NCBI GenBank assembly: GCA_903840415.1
Contig: CAIMFY010000094.1
Span: forward strand, 62,001 to 126,000
Reading direction: 5' to 3'
Length of the DNA stretch: 64,000 nucleotides
Source: an uncultured Opitutia bacterium
GTDB taxonomy: Bacteria > Verrucomicrobiota > Verrucomicrobiia > Opitutales > Opitutaceae
Below are positions 5,328-19,178 of the stretch, piece by piece. Each line of letters begins with the position of its first letter. Within the stretch, counting starts at the first letter, position 1. The notes under the pieces were generated by a model. The model was not told where the DNA came from. It saw nothing but the letters and a program-made list of their open reading frames with translations, and ran no database searches. The translations under genes were made by a program, and so were the position numbers.

Positions 5328-6248
5328 TCAACTCGACACCGGATCGGGGAATTCGGCGACGCCGGGATGTGCGGCGTTGGCGGCCGCGTACGGGAGTGAC
5401 CACGCGACGGCATCGCGCCAGCTCAAGCCGCGGTGAAACCGAGCATGCAGAGTGCAGGCTAGCATCACGTCACCTGAGCCGGTGGCCGAAACCTCACGGA
5501 CAACTGGACTGGCGATCGTCTCGGGGTCGCTGTGGTCGGCGAGGAACCAGACGGGCCCGCGGCCATCCGTCACTGCCCAGCGGAGCGCGCGACCGCGATC
5601 GCGCAGCGCGAGGAGGATCTCGCCGCTGGAAAGTTTGCACTCTGCCGGCGTGCACAACGACTCGAGTTCGCGGCGATTGATGCGGACGAGCGCTGCGGCG
5701 CGATCGACCAACCACGCCAGCGGCGGGCCGTAAGTATCGACGATCAGCGAGCCGCGCTCGGGCCAGCGATAAAGCAAATCGCGCAGCGGATCGAAATCGG
5801 GCGATTCCCAGCCGGGCAGACTGCCGCAGACGGCGAGCACTGAGCCGGTCGGCTGGGCTTCGAGATATGCGACGCACGCGCGAAGCGCAGTGGCGTCGGG
5901 CGCGACGTCGGGGCCGAGAAAAGTTGTCTCCCTGTGCGCACCCGAAGCATCGCGGACGACGGTGCCGCGGCGGGTCGCAGCGCTCGTGGAAAAAGTCTGA
6001 AATGAAAATGTTTTCGCGCGCAGCCAAGCCTCGCAGGCTGCGCCGGAGCCACCGCCGGCGAAGCACAGCGCGGTGTTGGTCGCGCCTAGGCGGTTGAGCA
6101 TTTTCGAGACGTTGATGCCTTTACCACCGACCTGAAACGTTTCGCCAGCGGCGCGCTGCGTCCGGCCGGGCATCCAGGTTTCAAATTCAAGCGTGTGCTC
6201 CATGAGCAGATTGCCCGTGAGCGTGAAGATGTGAGGTGGGATGCTCAT
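5328..6248 (-). CDS. PfkB-family sugar kinase (1-phosphofructokinase-like)
   Basis: Cytoplasmic kinase of 306 residues. The N-terminal third carries the FruK/LacC-type motif VGGKGINVSKMLNRLGA. The C-terminal PfkB signature is SATGSGDVMLAC, where GSGD replaces the usual GAGD and keeps the catalytic Asp. These motifs place it nearest to 1-phosphofructokinase or tagatose-6-phosphate kinase; the exact substrate is not shown. The frame is open upstream to 6842, but ATG 6248 overlaps the stop of the MFS gene in ATGA, indicating translational coupling. A carrier plus kinase pair suggests uptake and phosphorylation of one sugar. Confidence 0.85.
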   Translation of the reverse strand: MSIPPHIFTLTGNLLMEHTLEFETWMPGRTQRAAGETFQVGGKGINVSKMLNRLGATNTALCFAGGGSGAACEAWLRAKTFSFQTFSTSAATRRGTVVRDASGAHRETTFLGPDVAPDATALRACVAYLEAQPTGSVLAVCGSLPGWESPDFDPLRDLLYRWPERGSLIVDTYGPPLAWLVDRAAALVRINRRELESLCTPAECKLSSGEILLALRDRGRALRWAVTDGRGPVWFLADHSDPETIASPVVREVSATGSGDVMLACTLHARFHRGLSWRDAVAWSLPYAAANAAHPGVAEFPDPVSS

Positions 6249-7669
6249 CGTTTGTTGGACCGGTAGAAGACGTAGTTCACGAGGAAGTCGAGCCCGAGCA
6301 CGCCGCTCAGCGTCCGGATATTGCGCATCGCGCCGAACACCATGGTGAGCGAACTGGCTGATGGTTCGTGCACCTTGAACAGCAGCACGCATCCGGCGAC
6401 GGCGATCGCGGGCTGCACGAGGAAGCAGATGTGATAGACCGCGAGCGGATCGGTCCAGCGGCCAAGTGCCGAGTTGAGCACGGCGCCGCCGAGCACGGGG
6501 GCGATCGCGGCGGCGAGCGAGGTGACCGCGAGGTTGAGTCCGATTGCGAGGCTCTTGGCTTCGATCGGAATCAGGCGCAGTAGGATCGTGAACTGGCCCA
6601 GCACGAAGCCCGAGCTGGCGATGGCGCCCATGCTGGTCATGCCGCCGAGCGCCCAGATGATGTAAACCATCGTGCTGCTGTGAGGCGTAAGGAGGCACCA
6701 CAGGAGGTTGACGCCCTGCCACACGAACAGCGACACGGCCATGACGGGACGGTTGCCGAAGCGATCGAGGAGCCGGCCCCAAGCAGGCAGGGCGAGGGCG
6801 CCGCCCAGCGCCGACACCGTTGAGAGCAGGCCGACGTCCCACGCCGACAGGTGGAGCTGTTCAAAAAGGAAAACCTGGTAGAACGGCCCGAAGCAATTCG
6901 CCGCGAACGACCACACCGCCCCAAACGCGATGAACCACAGCAACGACGTGGACTGGCGCAGCACAGCGATCTGCGCGGGCAGCGCGAGCACGGCTGCGGT
7001 GTCCGGGCGGTGGGCGCGCGTCGGGCTCGTCCACTGCCAGTAGAGCGAAAAAATCCGCAGGAAGACGGTGCCGGCGATGATCGTTTGGAACGCCCCGATG
7101 GCATAGTCCCAGCGCGCAAGCACCCAACCGGTTACGAGCAGAAATGTCAGGGTGGAGATTTGCAGGAGCCGGTTGCGGCGTCCGAAATATTTTCCGCGGA
7201 GCCGGGCGGGAATCCACTCCTGCACCCACGCGTTCCAACTCACGGCGGCGAAGGCGCCGAACGCGCTCGAGATAAAAAACCAAGTGATAAGCCAGACGGC
7301 GGCGAGGTCCGGCCGATCGCGCGGGATGAAACTCAGCAACACCGCGAGCGCGGCCCAGCAGAGCATGTTCAGCCCAGCGGTGAGCACGGTGACCGTCTTC
7401 GGCGGCCGCCAGCGCGAGAGAAACGGCGCGAAGAAAATCTGGAGAAAGTTGGCCAGAAACGGCATGGCCGTGAGCAACCCGATCGACGTCTTGGGCAGCA
7501 CCCACGCCTTCGTGATGAGCGCGGTGAGAAACACGTTAACCGGCAGCCCCATCGTCACGATCGGCATCGCGAAAAGTCCGTCCTGCACGCACAACGCGAG
7601 ACTGCGCTGCAGATCGGCTTTGCGCTGGGCGGGAGGTGGGGCGGATTCGCGCGCGAGGATTGCGTTCAA
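6245..7669 (-). CDS. MFS transporter
   Basis: 474-residue inner-membrane carrier with about 12 hydrophobic segments in two halves. A cytoplasmic loop with a conserved basic stretch (ARLRGKYFGRRNRLLQ) lies after segment 4, resembling MFS carriers of the sugar/glycoside group. The last four bases overlap the PfkB-type kinase start, so transport and phosphorylation are probably coupled. The substrate cannot be read from sequence. Divergent from the glycosylase gene, with only 26 bases between starts. Confidence 0.87.
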   Translation of the reverse strand: MNAILARESAPPPAQRKADLQRSLALCVQDGLFAMPIVTMGLPVNVFLTALITKAWVLPKTSIGLLTAMPFLANFLQIFFAPFLSRWRPPKTVTVLTAGLNMLCWAALAVLLSFIPRDRPDLAAVWLITWFFISSAFGAFAAVSWNAWVQEWIPARLRGKYFGRRNRLLQISTLTFLLVTGWVLARWDYAIGAFQTIIAGTVFLRIFSLYWQWTSPTRAHRPDTAAVLALPAQIAVLRQSTSLLWFIAFGAVWSFAANCFGPFYQVFLFEQLHLSAWDVGLLSTVSALGGALALPAWGRLLDRFGNRPVMAVSLFVWQGVNLLWCLLTPHSSTMVYIIWALGGMTSMGAIASSGFVLGQFTILLRLIPIEAKSLAIGLNLAVTSLAAAIAPVLGGAVLNSALGRWTDPLAVYHICFLVQPAIAVAGCVLLFKVHEPSASSLTMVFGAMRNIRTLSGVLGLDFLVNYVFYRSNKR

Positions 7670-12402: not shown

Positions 12403-14751
12403 TCAGCGGCCCGCTTTCATGGCGAACGGTGCCTGCGTGCGCCCGGTGTGATGCCGCCAGAACCATCGCGCCATCGCGGGAAGCAAAATGATCGCGCCGA
12501 GCATGTTCACCAAGAACATGAACGTGAGCAGCAGGCCCATGTCGGCTTGAAACTTGAGACTGGAGAAAATCCAAGTGCTCACGCCGATCGCGAGCGTGAG
12601 GCCGGTGAAGACGACGGCCGCACCGGTGTCCTTGAGCGCGATCGCCATCGCATCCTCGAAGTATTCGCCGGTTTTCAGTGCGGTGTTGAGGCGAGCGAAA
12701 AGATAGATGCCGTAGTCGACGCCGATGCCGACGCCTAGCGCGACGACGGGCAGCGTCGAGGTTTTCAGACCAATGCCGAGGTAAACCATGAGCGCATAGG
12801 CGAGCCAGCTGACGATCGCCAGCGGGACGACGATGCAGAGCGTCGCGCGGATCGAGCGAAACGTAATTAGGCATAACGCGATCACGGCGCCGAACACCCA
12901 TAGCACGATGGGCGTCTGCGCCGCCTGCACAACTTCGTTGGTCGCAGCCATCACGCCGGCGTTGCCGCTAGCTAGGAGAAACTTTGCCTTGGGCGACGGA
13001 TGCGCGGCGGCGAAAGTCTTGGTGGCATCCGTCACAGCGCGCAGCGTCTCAGCCTTGTGATCGGTGAGAAAGATCATGATCGGCATCACGCTGCCGTCGC
13101 GGTTGAGCAGGCCGGTAGACGTCTCAATCGGGGAGACGGCTTGCGCGAGCGCTTGTTGGTTGCGCGGGAGAATGCGCCATTTGAGCGAGCCTTCGCTATA
13201 GCCGGCGTTGACGATCTTCGCCGTCGCGGGAACGGAAATCACGGACTGCACTCCAGGCACCGTGCGAATGGCGCCTTCGAACTGATCCATGAGCGCGACG
13301 ACGTCATAGTCGACACAGCCGTTGGGCACGGTCTCGACGAGCACGGAGAGAATGTCCACGCCGATGCTAAACTTGGAAGTGATGACGCGGGTGTCGGAAT
13401 TGTAGCGCGAACTCTGCCGCAGTTCGGGCACGCCGGCCTGCGTGTCGCCGATGCGGACCTGTTCGCCCTTCCAGAACGCCCAGGCCCCGGCGGCGAAACA
13501 GACGAGCATGATGGCCATCGAGGGGCCGGGCCGCATTTCGCGGGCTAGCCGATCCCAGAAGGAGTTGGTGATAGCGCGGCGGCTCGCGACCCACTCGCGA
13601 TAGCTGGCGGGCAGGCGGAGATATGAGAGCAGGATCGGCAGCAGGAAAAAGTTCGTGATGACGATCACGCTGACGCCGAGGCTGGCAATAATCGCGAGTT
13701 CGCGAATGACCTCGATTTTGATCACGAGCATCGTGATGAAGCCCACGGTGTCGGTCAGCAGCGCGACGATGCCGGGCGCGATCAGCTGCATGAACGCGGC
13801 ACGCGCCGCCGTGGGGCCGTCGACGCCCTTGAACATCTCATTGCGGAACGTGCAGATTTTCTGCACGCCGTGGCTCACGCCGATCGCGAAAACGAGAAAC
13901 GGCACGAGAATCGAAAACGGATCGATGCCGTAGCCGAGGGCGGTGAGGCCGCCGAGTTGCCAGATGACGGCGACGAGCGAACAGAGGACCGGCGCGAGGG
14001 CGAGTTTCCAACGTCCCGCGTAGTTCCACACCAGCAGCGCCGTGACGACGATGGAAATGGCAAACAAAACTAGGACATTGCGGGCGCCGTCGCTGATGTC
14101 GCCGATGACTTTTGCGAAGCCGATGATGTGAACGGAGATTTTTCCCCCAGTGGTGTGTTCGACGCGGTGGCGGATGGCCTCCAGTCCGGCGGCGACGCGG
14201 GTGTAGTCGATTTTATCGCCGGTGCTCGGGTCGATTTCGAGGAGCTGGGCGCTGACGATGGCGCCGGTGAAATCGTTGGCGACGAGTTGGCCGAGCTTGC
14301 CGGACTTGAGAATGTTTTCGCGGACCTTCGCGAAGTTAGCGGGCGTCGGGGTGAAGTCGGCGGGGATGACGTTGCCGCCGGCAAAGCCATCTTCGACGAC
14401 TTCGATGTAGCGGACGTTGGGCGTGAACAGCGACTGCACCTGGGGGCGATCGACGGCGGGGAGGAAGGTGACTTCTTCCGTGACAGATTTCAGTTCGCGA
14501 AAAAACGGTTCGGTAAAAATATCGCCCGACTCGGTCGTGAGTGCGACCAGCACGCGGTTCGCGCCGCCAAACTCGCTCTGATATTTCGTGAACGTGCGGA
14601 TGTAATCGTGATCGGTCGGCAGCGACTTATTGAAGCTGGCATCGACGTGGAGTCGCAGGGCAAAGACCAGCATCACCGCAGTGAGCACAGCGAATCCGCA
14701 GACCAGCGGAGTGCGCCAGCGAAACATCCAGGCGGTGAATTTTTCGAGCAT
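12403..14751 (-). CDS. RND/MMPL-family exporter
   Basis: 782-residue inner-membrane transporter with the two-fold RND layout. The first membrane helix (about 15-35) is followed by a large periplasmic loop (about 40-225), a block of helices including FAIGVSHGVQKI, a second large loop and a final block with VALGVGIGVDYGIYLFARL. Members move lipids or hydrophobic molecules. Start set at MLEKFTAWMF (14751), 37 bases after the YCF48 gene; an open frame continues to 14844 but overlaps that gene. Last member of the DUF1302-DUF1329-YCF48-RND set. Confidence 0.87.
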   Translation of the reverse strand: MLEKFTAWMFRWRTPLVCGFAVLTAVMLVFALRLHVDASFNKSLPTDHDYIRTFTKYQSEFGGANRVLVALTTESGDIFTEPFFRELKSVTEEVTFLPAVDRPQVQSLFTPNVRYIEVVEDGFAGGNVIPADFTPTPANFAKVRENILKSGKLGQLVANDFTGAIVSAQLLEIDPSTGDKIDYTRVAAGLEAIRHRVEHTTGGKISVHIIGFAKVIGDISDGARNVLVLFAISIVVTALLVWNYAGRWKLALAPVLCSLVAVIWQLGGLTALGYGIDPFSILVPFLVFAIGVSHGVQKICTFRNEMFKGVDGPTAARAAFMQLIAPGIVALLTDTVGFITMLVIKIEVIRELAIIASLGVSVIVITNFFLLPILLSYLRLPASYREWVASRRAITNSFWDRLAREMRPGPSMAIMLVCFAAGAWAFWKGEQVRIGDTQAGVPELRQSSRYNSDTRVITSKFSIGVDILSVLVETVPNGCVDYDVVALMDQFEGAIRTVPGVQSVISVPATAKIVNAGYSEGSLKWRILPRNQQALAQAVSPIETSTGLLNRDGSVMPIMIFLTDHKAETLRAVTDATKTFAAAHPSPKAKFLLASGNAGVMAATNEVVQAAQTPIVLWVFGAVIALCLITFRSIRATLCIVVPLAIVSWLAYALMVYLGIGLKTSTLPVVALGVGIGVDYGIYLFARLNTALKTGEYFEDAMAIALKDTGAAVVFTGLTLAIGVSTWIFSSLKFQADMGLLLTFMFLVNMLGAIILLPAMARWFWRHHTGRTQAPFAMKAGR

Positions 14752-14788
14752 CAGGGGGAGATCGACGTGGGACGGCGGAAAGGCGCGC

Positions 14789-15760
14789 TCAGGGTTTGGG
14801 CAAGAGCGTGACGCCAGCTTCGCCGACGGCGAGGATGGCACCATCGGGTAATTCGATGAGTTTCGCGACAGCCGTGGTGAGCGGCGTTAACCACGAAGCA
14901 AACGTGTGACCGTAGTCGCGACTCACCAAGCAGCCGCGCGCCTGGCCGGCGACGACGATCAGGTTGCTCTGAAGCTGCAGGGCGGTGGCGAGGAGCACCG
15001 GCTGGGGAGTGGCGATCGGTGACCAAGTCGCGCCGTCGTCGACTGAACGGAAGAGGCGGCCGCGTAAGCCGTGGGCGAGGAGGGTGCGTTTGTCGAGAGG
15101 CAGGATGCCGTAGAACGAGCCGTCGTAGGGCGCGGCGATGCGCTTCCACGTTACTCCGTCGTCGGCCGAGCGGAGCAGCGTGCCGTGCTCGCCGGCGAGG
15201 TAGAGAGTGCCGGTGGGGCCACGGGTGAGGTGGTTGAAATGGAAATCGTCGTCGGAGATTTTGCGACGGGTCCACGTCTTGCCCGTGTCGGTAGTGGACA
15301 GAAATAGGCCGTAGGCTCCGACAGCAATCACGTGTTGCGCGTTGAGCGCGAGCACGTCGAGGAAGGAGTCGGAGAGATTTTCTCCCTGCCATTGTTTTTG
15401 CCAGCTGTGGCCGCCGTCAGTGGTCGCGAGGAGGAGGGCGTCGTGGCCGACGGCCCAGCCGTGGAGCGCGTCGGGGGCAAAATTGACGGCGGTGAGGGTG
15501 GCGGTGGTCAGGTTCGTGGCACTTTGCCACGAGCGTCCAGCGTCCGCGGAACGCAGGATCGTGCCGCGCTCGCCGACGGCGACAAACTCGGTGCCGACGA
15601 CCGCGACATCGAGCAGCAGCATTCGCGGGGCGAGTTCAGCGGCGGGACTGACGAGGGCGAAAAGCAAAAGCGCAACCGTCACGATTGCGCTTTTGCCGCG
15701 GCGGCGGTCCGAGACCGCCGCCGGTAGGTTCGAATGAGAGACCATTGTTTCGGCGATCAT
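14789..15760 (-). CDS. YCF48-like BNR-repeat beta-propeller, exported
   Basis: 323 residues. After a basic stretch (RRRGKS) comes a hydrophobic signal segment (about residues 25-42), then six or more BNR/Asp-box repeats of the form RSADxGxSW or STTDTGKTW (for example LRSADAGRSW, LATTDGGHSW, FRSVDDGATW). The fold is that of the photosystem II assembly factor YCF48/HCF136, but in non-photosynthetic bacteria this family typically accompanies DUF1302, DUF1329 and RND proteins, as here. The start could be 15760 or 15745. Two perfect hairpins lie inside the first 100 bases of the gene. Confidence 0.8.
   Translation of the reverse strand: MIAETMVSHSNLPAAVSDRRRGKSAIVTVALLLFALVSPAAELAPRMLLLDVAVVGTEFVAVGERGTILRSADAGRSWQSATNLTTATLTAVNFAPDALHGWAVGHDALLLATTDGGHSWQKQWQGENLSDSFLDVLALNAQHVIAVGAYGLFLSTTDTGKTWTRRKISDDDFHFNHLTRGPTGTLYLAGEHGTLLRSADDGVTWKRIAAPYDGSFYGILPLDKRTLLAHGLRGRLFRSVDDGATWSPIATPQPVLLATALQLQSNLIVVAGQARGCLVSRDYGHTFASWLTPLTTAVAKLIELPDGAILAVGEAGVTLLPKP
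15666..15723 (-). promoter_or_regulatory. Two adjacent perfect hairpins, one terminator-like
   Basis: Read on the minus strand, first a perfect 10-bp stem with a 3-base loop (GGCGGCGGTC 15701-15710 and GACCGCCGCC 15714-15723), then a perfect 11-bp stem with a 9-base loop (CAAAAGCGCAA 15666-15676 and TTGCGCTTTTG 15686-15696) that ends in a T-rich run. The second has the shape of an intrinsic terminator, yet it sits in the signal-peptide coding region of the YCF48-like gene, inside the operon. Confidence 0.6.
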
Positions 15761-15785
15761 GAACCGCCGTAACTGCAGAATCCGA

Positions 15786-17144
15786 TCACCGCACGCCTTC
15801 GCGGCGAAGCGAATCAGGCGTGAAGTCGGCGGGCGTCCGCTTGAGATTAAAATTATACATCGGTTTATCGTTATCGAGGCCGATGGCGAGGTAGCGACCG
15901 TTGTCGAGGTGCATGTGGACCTCGAGGGTGCTCCAGAAGCTCAAGGCATCGTAATAATTGATGCAGTGTGCTTCGGAGACGACGTTCATCTGGCCGCGCT
16001 TGTCGTATTGATCGGCGATCAGGATCTGCCAGCTGTCCTCGTCGATGTAGAAAGTGCGGCGCGAGTAAACGTGATCGGTGCCGGGCTTCAGGGTGGCATC
16101 GACCACCCAGACGCGGTGCAGTTCATAGCGGGCGAGATCCTGATTGATGTGGAGCGGCTTCAGGATGTCGGCGACCTTGGTCTTGTCGCTGTGGAGCGTG
16201 TAGGAGTTGTAGGGGACAAGCAGTTCCTTCTTGCCGACGAGCTTCCAGTCGTAGCGATCGGGCGCACCGTTAAACATGTCGAATTGGTCGCTCGTGCGCT
16301 GACCGTCGGCCGCCGTGCCGGGATTGTCGTAGGCGACATTGGGCGCTCGGGTGACGCGGCGGCGACCGGCGTTGTAAACCCAGGCGCGGCGCGGTTCCTT
16401 GACCTGATCCATGGTTTCCTGCGCGAGGAGAATCGTGCCGGCGAGGCGGGCCGGGGCGACCACCGACTGCTTGAAGAAGATGAGCGTGTTGCTGTCATCC
16501 AGTTCTTTGGCGGTGATGTCGGGGCGGGTATAGTTGAAGAGAAACTCGTCCTCGAACTGCACGAGTTGGTAACCGCCGCCGCGTTCGACGGCCGCCTGAC
16601 CGATGTGGCGGTCGGCAGCTATGCCGCGATAGCGAGTCAGGAAATTCCACAGCACTTCGAGTCCATTTTGGGGAATCGGAAATGGCGCACCGACGATCGC
16701 GCCGGAGATGCCGTTACCGTTGGAGACGAGATTGGCGCTCGTGGCATTGGCCTTCGTGGCATCGTAGACACGCTGCGGATTGGCGGCGCTGCGATGCGTG
16801 GGGTAGACGACCAGTTTGTAGTCGGGATAAGCCTTAAGCAACGCGAGCGTGCCGGCGGCGAGCTTCGCGGAGTATTGTTCCGCGTTGCTCTGAGACACAG
16901 TGTAAAGCGGCTGATCGCTCGCGAATGGGTCTGGATGGTGGTCGCCGACTTTGTAGCCGGCGGGCGGGGTCGTGATGCCGCCGGTCCACGCAGGGATGGA
17001 GTTGTCGGCGTTGCCGGCCATCTCGCCACCGAGTGGAGTCAGATCCTTGCCGAGGCGGGCGGCGTCGGCGGCGCTGACGGCCGCGCGACCGGGCGCCAGC
17101 GAGACCACGAGGGTGAGTGCAAAAAGCCGAAGGAAGTTTTTCAT
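15786..17144 (-). CDS. DUF1329 protein, outer-membrane lipoprotein-sorting-like
   Basis: 452-residue exported protein with a signal peptide (MKNFLRLFALTLVVSLAPGR). It opens with AARLGKDLTPLGGEMAGNADNSIPAWTGG, the hallmark of DUF1329, and has the family length. The fold is related to LolA/LolB-type lipid-carrying half-barrels, so a periplasmic hydrophobic-ligand carrier is the best guess. It lies 42 bases after DUF1302 and 25 before YCF48, in one operon with an RND exporter. Confidence 0.85.
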   Translation of the reverse strand: MKNFLRLFALTLVVSLAPGRAAVSAADAARLGKDLTPLGGEMAGNADNSIPAWTGGITTPPAGYKVGDHHPDPFASDQPLYTVSQSNAEQYSAKLAAGTLALLKAYPDYKLVVYPTHRSAANPQRVYDATKANATSANLVSNGNGISGAIVGAPFPIPQNGLEVLWNFLTRYRGIAADRHIGQAAVERGGGYQLVQFEDEFLFNYTRPDITAKELDDSNTLIFFKQSVVAPARLAGTILLAQETMDQVKEPRRAWVYNAGRRRVTRAPNVAYDNPGTAADGQRTSDQFDMFNGAPDRYDWKLVGKKELLVPYNSYTLHSDKTKVADILKPLHINQDLARYELHRVWVVDATLKPGTDHVYSRRTFYIDEDSWQILIADQYDKRGQMNVVSEAHCINYYDALSFWSTLEVHMHLDNGRYLAIGLDNDKPMYNFNLKRTPADFTPDSLRREGVR

Positions 17145-17186
17145 GAGGGAAAAGGTCGAGGTAGATAGTCGGGGTGGCTCGTTGGC

Positions 17187-19178
17187 TTAGAAGGAATATT
17201 TCACGGTCGTGGAAACGTAGTCGCGATCGTAGAGAGGGTTAAAGTGGCCGGCGCCGAAGAAATTCACGTAGCGCAACTCGTAAGACCAGGCGTTGCGGAA
17301 GGTGAATTCGACCGAGGCGTTCACGCTGCGCCGATCCTTGATGAAGTTGCCGAGTGGGAGTGGGCTGTTGCCGTGGACATCGTGAGTGAACGCGATCGTC
17401 GGCGACATGTTCACATTCGGGATGATGTTATTGTAGTCGAGTCGGCCGAGGAGTTGGTAGCCACACGAAAACTTGTCGGCGAAGCCCTCGAAGCTGGTCG
17501 CGGGAACGGTGGGGAAGCCTGTGGCGACCATCGCAGCGGCGTTACCACCAGTGTTCGTGCCGGTGCCGTCGTAGCGCAGTGTGCTCTTGGAAGGCAGGTT
17601 GACCCAGAGTCCGCCAACTTCGCCGAGTAACGTGAACTGCTGCGCGCCGAGCATCGGGCCGAAGACTTTTGTGAGCGTAGTTTGCGCGGACCAGACATCA
17701 TGCCGGCGGTAGCCCGAGATTTCGGTGTTATATTGGCCGAGGTAGCTGCCGAGTTGGTTATTGGGTGGCGCGAAAGTGTTGGTGAGCGAAGAAAGTGTGG
17801 CGAACAGCAACTCCACGTCGTCGATTTGGAGCGGGACGCCGTGCTTATAGCCGACTTCGCCTTGCCAGGAGATACCAGTGTTGCCGATCGCGGTGTTGAA
17901 GCTTGCTCCTAACATATTGATGCCCTCGGGATATTCCGTGAAATACCGGCCGGTGGCGGCGGCGGTGAGCAGGCCAATCTTGCTCGCGCCGGCGACGATC
18001 GACTGAGCGCTGGGCAGGAATGGCGTGAGGCCCAGTGGTGTCAGCGCGCTGGCTGGCACCGCGCCGAAGGCGACGCCGAGGAGTGTGCTGATTGCTGTCG
18101 GCACCGAAGCGGCGGGCACGCCGTTCGCGATGAGTGCTGGCGCGAGGTTGGTCGTGGCCAGACTGCCCGCCGTCGCCTGCACGAACGCTGTGTCGATCGG
18201 TCCGGTAGGCGTGCGGGCGCTGATGACCGGCGAGCGGCTATTGTAGCGAGCGAAGTAGAAACCAAATTCGGTGTCATGCATTGACGGCGCGACGAGGTGG
18301 GCGGCGATGCCGTATTGATTGAGGTTGGAACCCACGCGGTCCGGACCGCGTGGGATGCCGCCGAGCGTGCCGTTGTCAGGGAGCGTGCCGAAGCCGAGAA
18401 AAACTTGGCTGCCTCCACGAGTAGCGAAATCGTTCGTCGAGAAATACGTGCCCGCCGGTTCAAGCTCGTTGCGGCGGAATTCCAGCAGCCAGAACGGCTC
18501 GATCGTGAGATTCTTCGTGAGGCCGATGGAGGCCTTGACCATGTTCACCGGCAGAAGCGCTTCCTTCAACTCGGAGCCGGGCGTGCGGAGTTTCGATAGA
18601 TCGACGGCATTAACGACGTTGATACCGTTCGGGATGAACGTGCTCTCGCCGAGGCTCAGCACCTGGCGGCCGATGCGGAGGTCGAACGGCATGTCCGCGC
18701 CGAGGCTAAATTTCCCGCGAACATACGCGTCGAGCAATTCGCCGCCGCGCACGACGCGGTCCTTCGCCGCTTGGGACAGAGGCGTGCGGAGAGTTTCACC
18801 CGCCTGGGGATCGGTAAACCAATAGCCGCGGACCAGCGCGCCAAAGTCGCCGTATTTAAGCTCGAGATCATGGGAACCCTTGAAGATTTGGGACACCCAG
18901 CCTTGAGCGTAGTTCAGGTTGCCGTCGTCGGAATTGACGGAATTGCTCAAGCCAGGGGTGCCATTAAAGGTATTTGCGATGCCGTAGTTGCCGGGCGAGG
19001 GATTGTTCAGGCGGTAGAGTCCACCCACCGATAACGTGGAGTCGAAGCTGCCTGTGAGCTCGCCGAAGGTGAATTGAAACGCGCGCGACGGCACGGCCGC
19101 CAGCAGCACACCGAGAGCGGCAATGAAGGTCGCGCGGCCAAAGCGGGCGGCGACAGTGGGAGACGGATGATCATTCAT
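17187..19178 (-). CDS. DUF1302 outer-membrane protein
   Basis: 663-residue predicted outer-membrane beta-barrel. After a signal peptide (about 33 residues, ending SRAF), the mature start FQFTFGELTGSFDSTLSVGG is typical of DUF1302, as are the alternating hydrophobic strands and the C-terminal aromatic end YVSTTVKYSF recognised by the BAM machinery. Start chosen at MNDHPS (19178); the frame is open to 19400 but crosses the uvrA promoter. It is the first gene of the envelope module and so sits closest to the promoter. Confidence 0.85.
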   Translation of the reverse strand: MNDHPSPTVAARFGRATFIAALGVLLAAVPSRAFQFTFGELTGSFDSTLSVGGLYRLNNPSPGNYGIANTFNGTPGLSNSVNSDDGNLNYAQGWVSQIFKGSHDLELKYGDFGALVRGYWFTDPQAGETLRTPLSQAAKDRVVRGGELLDAYVRGKFSLGADMPFDLRIGRQVLSLGESTFIPNGINVVNAVDLSKLRTPGSELKEALLPVNMVKASIGLTKNLTIEPFWLLEFRRNELEPAGTYFSTNDFATRGGSQVFLGFGTLPDNGTLGGIPRGPDRVGSNLNQYGIAAHLVAPSMHDTEFGFYFARYNSRSPVISARTPTGPIDTAFVQATAGSLATTNLAPALIANGVPAASVPTAISTLLGVAFGAVPASALTPLGLTPFLPSAQSIVAGASKIGLLTAAATGRYFTEYPEGINMLGASFNTAIGNTGISWQGEVGYKHGVPLQIDDVELLFATLSSLTNTFAPPNNQLGSYLGQYNTEISGYRRHDVWSAQTTLTKVFGPMLGAQQFTLLGEVGGLWVNLPSKSTLRYDGTGTNTGGNAAAMVATGFPTVPATSFEGFADKFSCGYQLLGRLDYNNIIPNVNMSPTIAFTHDVHGNSPLPLGNFIKDRRSVNASVEFTFRNAWSYELRYVNFFGAGHFNPLYDRDYVSTTVKYSF
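18331..18354. repeat. 24-bp perfect palindrome inside the DUF1302 gene
   Basis: CCCACGCGGTCC is followed at once by its exact reverse complement with no loop. It encodes part of a surface-loop-like stretch (IPRGPDRVGS). A perfect 24-mer is unlikely by chance and is a candidate protein-binding or cruciform site, or a recent sequence conversion. Confidence 0.7.

Follow-up and report, generated by a model that had tools for sequence, protein, structure and literature searches.

A chromosomal DUF1302-DUF1329-YCF48-RND cassette of AmeABCD-like composition at a uvrA site in Opitutaceae

The closest described system is AmeABCD of Castellaniella defragrans, characterized in 2018 (PMC6394551). It is reported to comprise a DUF1302 protein, a DUF1329 protein of the LolA superfamily, a COG4447 propeller, and a 12-segment RND protein (605, 451, 316, and 787 aa, respectively), whose genes follow each other in that sequence within a monoterpene island and are monoterpene-inducible. 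The deletion mutant grew more poorly on apolar monoterpenes, tolerated them less well, and accumulated slightly more Nile Red. The authors call AmeABCD an exporter and describe all members of the AmeD lineage as encoded in cassettes of this make-up. In Pseudomonas putida (PMC10866462), PP_0765, PP_0766, PP_2018, and PP_2019, which include DUF1302 and DUF1329 proteins as well as a periplasmic protein and a transporter of the RND type, are reported to share one phenotype, the requirement for growth on Tween 20, and to have predicted contacts with each other, although they are encoded at two separate loci. The 'nanopod' cluster of ORM2a (Desulfobacterota) also unites porin-like, DUF1329, YCF48-related, and MMPL proteins; it is reported as highly expressed in a benzene-degrading culture, with a universal stress protein and a hypothetical protein interposed (PMC13101534), and the same source refers to a Delftia strain that grew less well on phenanthrene after deletion of a DUF1329 gene. 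Further accounts place the four families in aromatic-degradation regulons with a suggested role against toxic concentrations (PMC6449761), DUF1302 and DUF1329 in a phenol-hydroxylase cluster (PMC7012976), DUF1302 and DUF1329 proteins in nanopods, with a DUF1302 protein in the Delftia outer membrane (PMC3110197), and an MMPL protein with a LolA-like domain, raised on C28 alkane, beside a porin (PMC6304351). Despite these monoterpene, aromatic, and Tween phenotypes, Pfam continues to list both DUF1302 and DUF1329 as unknown. In the open-access literature, we found no report of a verrucomicrobial cassette of this kind, although the tree in Fig. 7 of PMC6394551 may include Verrucomicrobiota.

Here, we analyzed a window of 64,000 nucleotides; its contig measures 198 kb, and the genome (4.9 Mb) is estimated to be 98% complete. 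Four genes on the minus strand, between 19178 and 12403, match AmeABCD in both families and order: a DUF1302 outer-membrane protein (A; 17187..19178, 663 aa, PF06980, E 4.2e-149), a DUF1329 periplasmic protein (B; 15786..17144, 452 aa, PF07044, E 1.5e-150), a YCF48-like beta-propeller (C; 14789..15760, 323 aa, PF14870, E 1.4e-20), and an RND/MMPL inner-membrane transporter (D; 12403..14751, 782 aa, PF03176, E 1e-29). The intergenic gaps of A/B, B/C, and C/D are 42, 25, and 37 bases. An earlier note had described these leftward genes, their gaps, and their families from the sequence; the coordinates and strand were confirmed, and the Pfam search upheld the family names. The start codons are those set in that note, and longer upstream open frames exist for the DUF1302 and RND genes. 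The module is not new, AmeABCD having this composition and order. Compared by families, order, and lengths, the two cassettes agree, the protein lengths being similar; they differ in setting, since AmeABCD belongs to a monoterpene island with monoterpene induction, whereas the window cassette lies beside uvrA and no catabolic genes were found there. The uvrA gene, whose start at about 19387 was chosen by eye, runs in the opposite direction to the cassette, and a gene of the AI-2E family (12360-11212, minus strand) follows 42 bases past the RND gene. The minus-strand run of 12360-8210 contains AI-2E, metallo-hydrolase, and DUF3108 genes (Pfam), then a glycosyltransferase-like gene recognized by eye.

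The verrucomicrobial origin proposed for the window was supported. In G357, a genome of the same family code (f1) as the window's genome, the RND protein is identical in sequence to the one found in L070, a named MAG of Cephaloticoccus (Opitutaceae), and the host family was therefore assigned to Opitutaceae; L070 and L053 have the same RND sequence.

For structure prediction, the window proteins were aligned with 37 DUF1302 and 43 DUF1329 relatives, and AlphaFold2 was used for DUF1302. Protein A has a signal-peptide-like N-terminus and an aromatic C-terminal residue, and its model (pLDDT 86.9, pTM 0.81) has 18 strands of at least 8 residues and a helical insert at about residues 330-407. The VIA-align search related this model to OccK porins (Z 23), MOMP (Z 21), and AlgE (Z 20) at 9-12% identity. 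Thus, on the model, protein A is a porin-like barrel of the outer-membrane type, a fold that does not tell the substrate. In Pfam, PF06980 was the sole family matched at E 0.01, with no match to FadL (PF03349), and the DUF1302 profile gave one match in the PDB (E 0.041), a ketoacyl reductase, which we took as chance. The DUF1329 model (pLDDT 89.2, pTM 0.89) was similar over residues 157-452 to LolA3 of Porphyromonas gingivalis (9tp6; Z 20.8, rmsd 2.6, 234 aligned), to the solved DUF1329 protein 4z48 (Z 18.9), and to LolA and LolB chains (Z of about 7-11) among the VIA-align matches listed, and the first 156 residues were barely covered by this search. As modelled, residues 157-452 of B have a LolA-like fold. 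Protein B differs from LolA and LolB in carrying about 155 residues before the LolA-like domain and in having an RND protein as partner instead of LolCDE. The outer-membrane barrel and the lipid-carrier-like protein of the earlier note were thus supported by the models, and no fold speaking against them was seen.

Protein C has one N-terminal hydrophobic segment by hydropathy and matched solved Ycf48 chains (E 4e-20), and it scored 78.3 bits against the NCBIfam Ycf48 model NF010237, under the cut-off of 326. For protein D, hydropathy gave 12 hydrophobic segments at a threshold of 1.35 and 13 at 1.2. The best NCBIfam model was HAE3 (TIGR00921) with 178 bits, under the cut-off of 351.9, and weak matches to MmpL5/MmpL4 and HpnN chains relate D to the lipid-exporting kind of RND protein. 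D did not reach the NCBIfam cut-offs for HpnN (TIGR03480, 77.2 against 751.85 bits; NF052374, 31.2 against 1100) or for the sterol transporter BstA (NF045600, 23.6 against 1400). Asp-Tyr pairs of such RND proteins carry protons. In D, the pair Asp679-Tyr680 in TM10, aligned to the MmpL5 Asp-Tyr pair, is conserved in 95% or more of the 83 rows. The same holds for Ser293-His294 in TM4, a position that a weak alignment (E 0.0011) assigns to Asp-Phe in HpnN. The combination of TM4 Ser-His and TM10 Asp-Tyr may be characteristic of this lineage of RND proteins.

Judged by its gene content, its gene order, and the folds predicted for its proteins, the locus falls into the AmeABCD-type class, with the HAE3 model of D scoring under its cut-off. 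We favor, with moderate confidence, a four-part transporter of this type for hydrophobic or amphiphilic molecules, with net export. The RND protein D, probably proton-driven via Asp679 in TM10, would take the cargo from the inner membrane; the LolA-like B would ferry it through the periplasm; the propeller C may help to assemble or dock B with D; and the porin-like A would pass the cargo through or into the outer membrane. The net flow outward would amount to envelope detoxification or lipophile homeostasis. We infer the cargo class, proton coupling, docking, and direction, and export is most likely the direction of flow rather than import. The trans-envelope module for hydrophobic cargo proposed in the earlier note agrees with the gene families and their order, with the folds as predicted, and with the AmeABCD precedent, whereas its continuous path from inner to outer membrane, and the direction along it, are still what we infer.

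The conservation of the cassette was evaluated in 387 genomes of the phylum, using DUF1329 as the query and E below 1e-100 as the definition of a strong match; weak partial matches in 17 more genomes were dropped. The search resulted in 26 copies in 25 genomes, with 23 of the 37 genomes of the window's own family but only 2 of the 350 others (G119 of the same order and G294 of the same phylum). The A-B-C-D order was kept in all 25 verrucomicrobial loci other than the window's, with alignments in two pieces for D of L040 and A of L043. The cassette is thus conserved as a unit in gene content and order, and the four genes were not separated in these relatives. The uvrA gene was in the flank of 22 of the 25 loci (all except L043, L048, and L057) and of six of ten named verrucomicrobial loci; two of the four misses, L075 and L109, have no upstream sequence. 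The pairwise distances of the four proteins correlated at r 0.67-0.88 over 32 verrucomicrobial loci and at 0.71-0.90 over 45 non-verrucomicrobial loci, values that shared ancestry inflates; none of 500 permutations gave a correlation as high for any of the six protein pairs. A gene of the AI-2E family was in the stretch of 11 of the 26 cassette loci, and a DinB-type polymerase gene (PF00817), found a few kb beyond uvrA (for instance L034, 17564-18772), belongs to a cluster represented in 10 of the 26. One genome (G010) has a second cassette, L048 (G010:C25:790201-810200), away from uvrA.

We also viewed the uvrA flank in 12 hand-picked Opitutaceae genomes without a strong DUF1329 match. The flank covered was about 4 kb long for G085 and 6.7 kb for G372, and 12 kb for each of the remaining genomes. 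Four of the 12 (G045, G140, G085, and G116) had an empty site, and uvrA stood directly beside AI-2E, which is the far neighbor of the cassette in the window. In G411, uvrA was beside DUF3108. G372 harbors a broken RND remnant in two pieces between uvrA and AI-2E (L159, G372:C9:1-7700, at about 5497-6494), and the cassette was therefore lost in this close relative; in the genus of G372, eight of ten sampled genomes carry it. The remaining six of the 12 genomes showed no cassette gene or downstream neighbor within 12 kb. From this comparison, the unit begins with the DUF1302 gene and ends with the RND gene; what follows downstream lies outside it.

A recent acquisition of the window's copy was considered and found unsupported, given the GC content of the cassette (0.618, against 0.624 for the window) and the grouping of the verrucomicrobial RND rows. 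An unrooted RND tree, built quickly from 83 rows that include proteobacterial relatives other than AmeD, united 34 verrucomicrobial rows in one starred group (SH-aLRT 99). The sole verrucomicrobial row outside it, L043 of G294, grouped with a proteobacterial MAG (L134); as L043 is on a 9.7 kb contig, this may reflect a separate transfer or misbinning. An old transfer of the cassette between phyla would still be compatible with this sequence tree.

The wider scan, with one genome per species and a mixed DUF1329 alignment, yielded 80 loci among the matches listed, from Pseudomonadota, desulfuromonads and their relatives, Acidobacteriota, Nitrospirota, and Verrucomicrobiota. Forty-nine of these listed loci were A-B-C-D and one was A-B-C-D plus a second A-B; the others comprised 18 A-B, five B, four A-B-C, and three B-C-D, and several incomplete ones were due to contig ends. 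On plasmids, we chose eight loci from 42 and 79 matching records: five were A-B-C-D, one was B-A-C-D (Vibrio), one A-B, and one C-D. Seven of the eight adjoin catabolic-type genes, namely a fatty acid-CoA ligase with a thiolase, an aldolase/acetaldehyde dehydrogenase set, a fatty acid-CoA ligase, aldehyde dehydrogenases, a homogentisate dioxygenase, a Rieske protein with a VOC protein, and an acyl-CoA dehydrogenase, respectively, and the C-D pair lies among transposases.

The favored reading, an AmeABCD-type exporter, draws on the cassette order in 25 of 25 fetched loci and in 49 of the 80 listed loci, on the empty sites in four of the 12 genomes, and on the single remnant. Against it stand the slight Nile Red effect in C. 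defragrans and the Tween 20 requirement of P. putida, the latter of which also suits uptake. The catabolic associations described below count against it too. In an uptake route, fatty acids, acyl esters, or hydrocarbons would enter through the barrel, cross the periplasm on DUF1329, and be handed to the inner membrane for catabolism with the help of the RND protein. We consider this unlikely, and the gene content around and outside the cassette argues both ways.

Nine catabolic queries (two acyl-CoA ligases, two thiolases, a FadB-like protein, an acyl-CoA dehydrogenase, CaiB, a Rieske component, and a LuxR regulator) were searched around the cassette. None was found in 24 of the 25 verrucomicrobial loci or in the 10 named ones, some of these loci being short, and thus no catabolic query gene stands beside the uvrA-linked copies. 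The one exception, L048, adjoins acyl-CoA ligase, FadB-like, and thiolase genes according to Pfam, as uptake would have it; three of the nine queries came from L048, so the Pfam result is the independent evidence for this locus. Outside the Verrucomicrobiota, among the matches listed, an acyl-CoA ligase was near 19 of 70 named loci, and a ligase, FadB, thiolase, or acyl-CoA dehydrogenase was near 27 of the 70. The background of 182 AMP-binding genes in 14 of those genomes (about 61 Mb) corresponds to about 0.05 per 17 kb, and no p-value is given for the enrichment due to the relatedness of the loci.

In the 200 sampled Opitutaceae genomes, 117 matched DUF1329, and 11 weak matches were dropped, leaving 106 carriers. 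A strong 3-hydroxyacyl-CoA dehydrogenase (PF02737) match was present in 61 of the 106 carriers and in 26 of the 94 non-carriers (p 3e-5), and by genus in 16 of 29 against 5 of 20 (p 0.045), an association that is weak and that speaks for uptake. However, 45 of the 106 carriers had no strong PF02737 match, although scoring was limited to 16 candidates per genome and some may have been missed, and genus g19 had the cassette in 10 of 10 genomes and a strong PF02737 match in none of the 10. The window's genome has a 3-hydroxyacyl-CoA dehydrogenase; in its sampled congener G401, which carries the cassette too, no match was strong. With only a weak association, and within the 16 candidates scored per genome, beta-oxidation was rejected as the general purpose of the cassette. 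FadL (PF03349) was likewise rejected as a partner or substitute, being matched in 38 of the 106 carriers and 38 of the 94 others (p 0.56), with no match in the window's genome. A purely nutritional uptake is ill-suited due to the absence of the catabolic queries near the loci and the carriers lacking a strong PF02737 match. To our knowledge, import by an HAE3-type RND protein would also be unusual.

Envelope biogenesis, in which an endogenous lipid would be moved from the inner to the outer membrane, along the lines of hopanoid transport by HpnN or lipoprotein transport by the Lol path, seems about as improbable as uptake. The predicted LolA-like fold of B, the weak RND match to HpnN, the fixed uvrA site in 22 of 25 loci, and the lack of catabolic neighbors are in its favor. 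D and HpnN belong to the same wider RND group, but D scored 77 against the HpnN cut-off of 752, carries Ser-His in TM4 in place of Asp-Phe, and comes from a genome without a hopanoid cyclase match. The hopanoid cyclase PF13243 was matched in 16 of the 200 Opitutaceae at E 0.001, convincingly in two (G421, 3.5e-26; G414, 5.2e-20), the others being at 2.4e-7 or weaker, and squalene/phytoene synthase PF00494 in 18 of the 200, 12 of them carriers; neither was matched in the window's genome. Hopanoid, squalene, or carotenoid cargo in general was rejected on these counts, and a triterpenoid or carotenoid cargo is unfit for the biogenesis proposal. Moreover, the cassette is not essential in the family, as only 106 of 200 genomes carry a strong copy, and relatives are induced by hydrocarbons, according to PMC6394551. 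That A-B and C-D are two separate pairs merely travelling together is very improbable: only A-B was found, within the stretch viewed, in 17 listed loci of Pseudomonas, Marinobacter, and Thiopseudomonas, and one plasmid locus has C-D alone, but all 25 verrucomicrobial loci fetched keep the four genes side by side, the four empty sites lack all of them, and in P. putida the two pairs, though encoded apart, have one phenotype in common and predicted contacts (PMC10866462).

Neither beta-oxidation nor triterpenoids and carotenoids explain the cassette generally, given the carriers without PF02737 and the rarity of PF00494. The fixed uvrA site, the persistence without strong beta-oxidation or triterpenoid genes, and the retention or loss as a unit suggest, tentatively, that the Opitutaceae cassette has become detached from hydrocarbon and fatty-acid catabolism and provides an optional envelope route for a class of lipids or lipophiles outside the known RND lipid transporters; we regard this as possible, though doubtful. 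What is new here is the host and the setting: the cassette is chromosomal, occupies a fixed site without catabolic neighbors, and is either complete or missing altogether. The machine was already known; it is a useful but modest addition and not a new kind of system. Pairs of Opitutaceae with and without the cassette could separate the basic transport activity from catabolism. If the export reading is true in the form of a general lipophile exporter, part of solvent tolerance outside Proteobacteria would be explained.

Regulatory signals were also scanned. Promoter-like sites (one against 1.2 expected) and terminator-like sites (seven against 6.0 expected) were at chance level. A dedicated scan of 32 loci located an attenuator-like 5-pair hairpin followed by six T at 19213-19194 (minus strand), 15 bases before the DUF1302 ATG, which was absent from the list of the general terminator scan. 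The hairpin was not conserved, as a second terminator-like site among the 32 loci was found only in L049 and farther off; by eye, L072 has a similar upstream hairpin.
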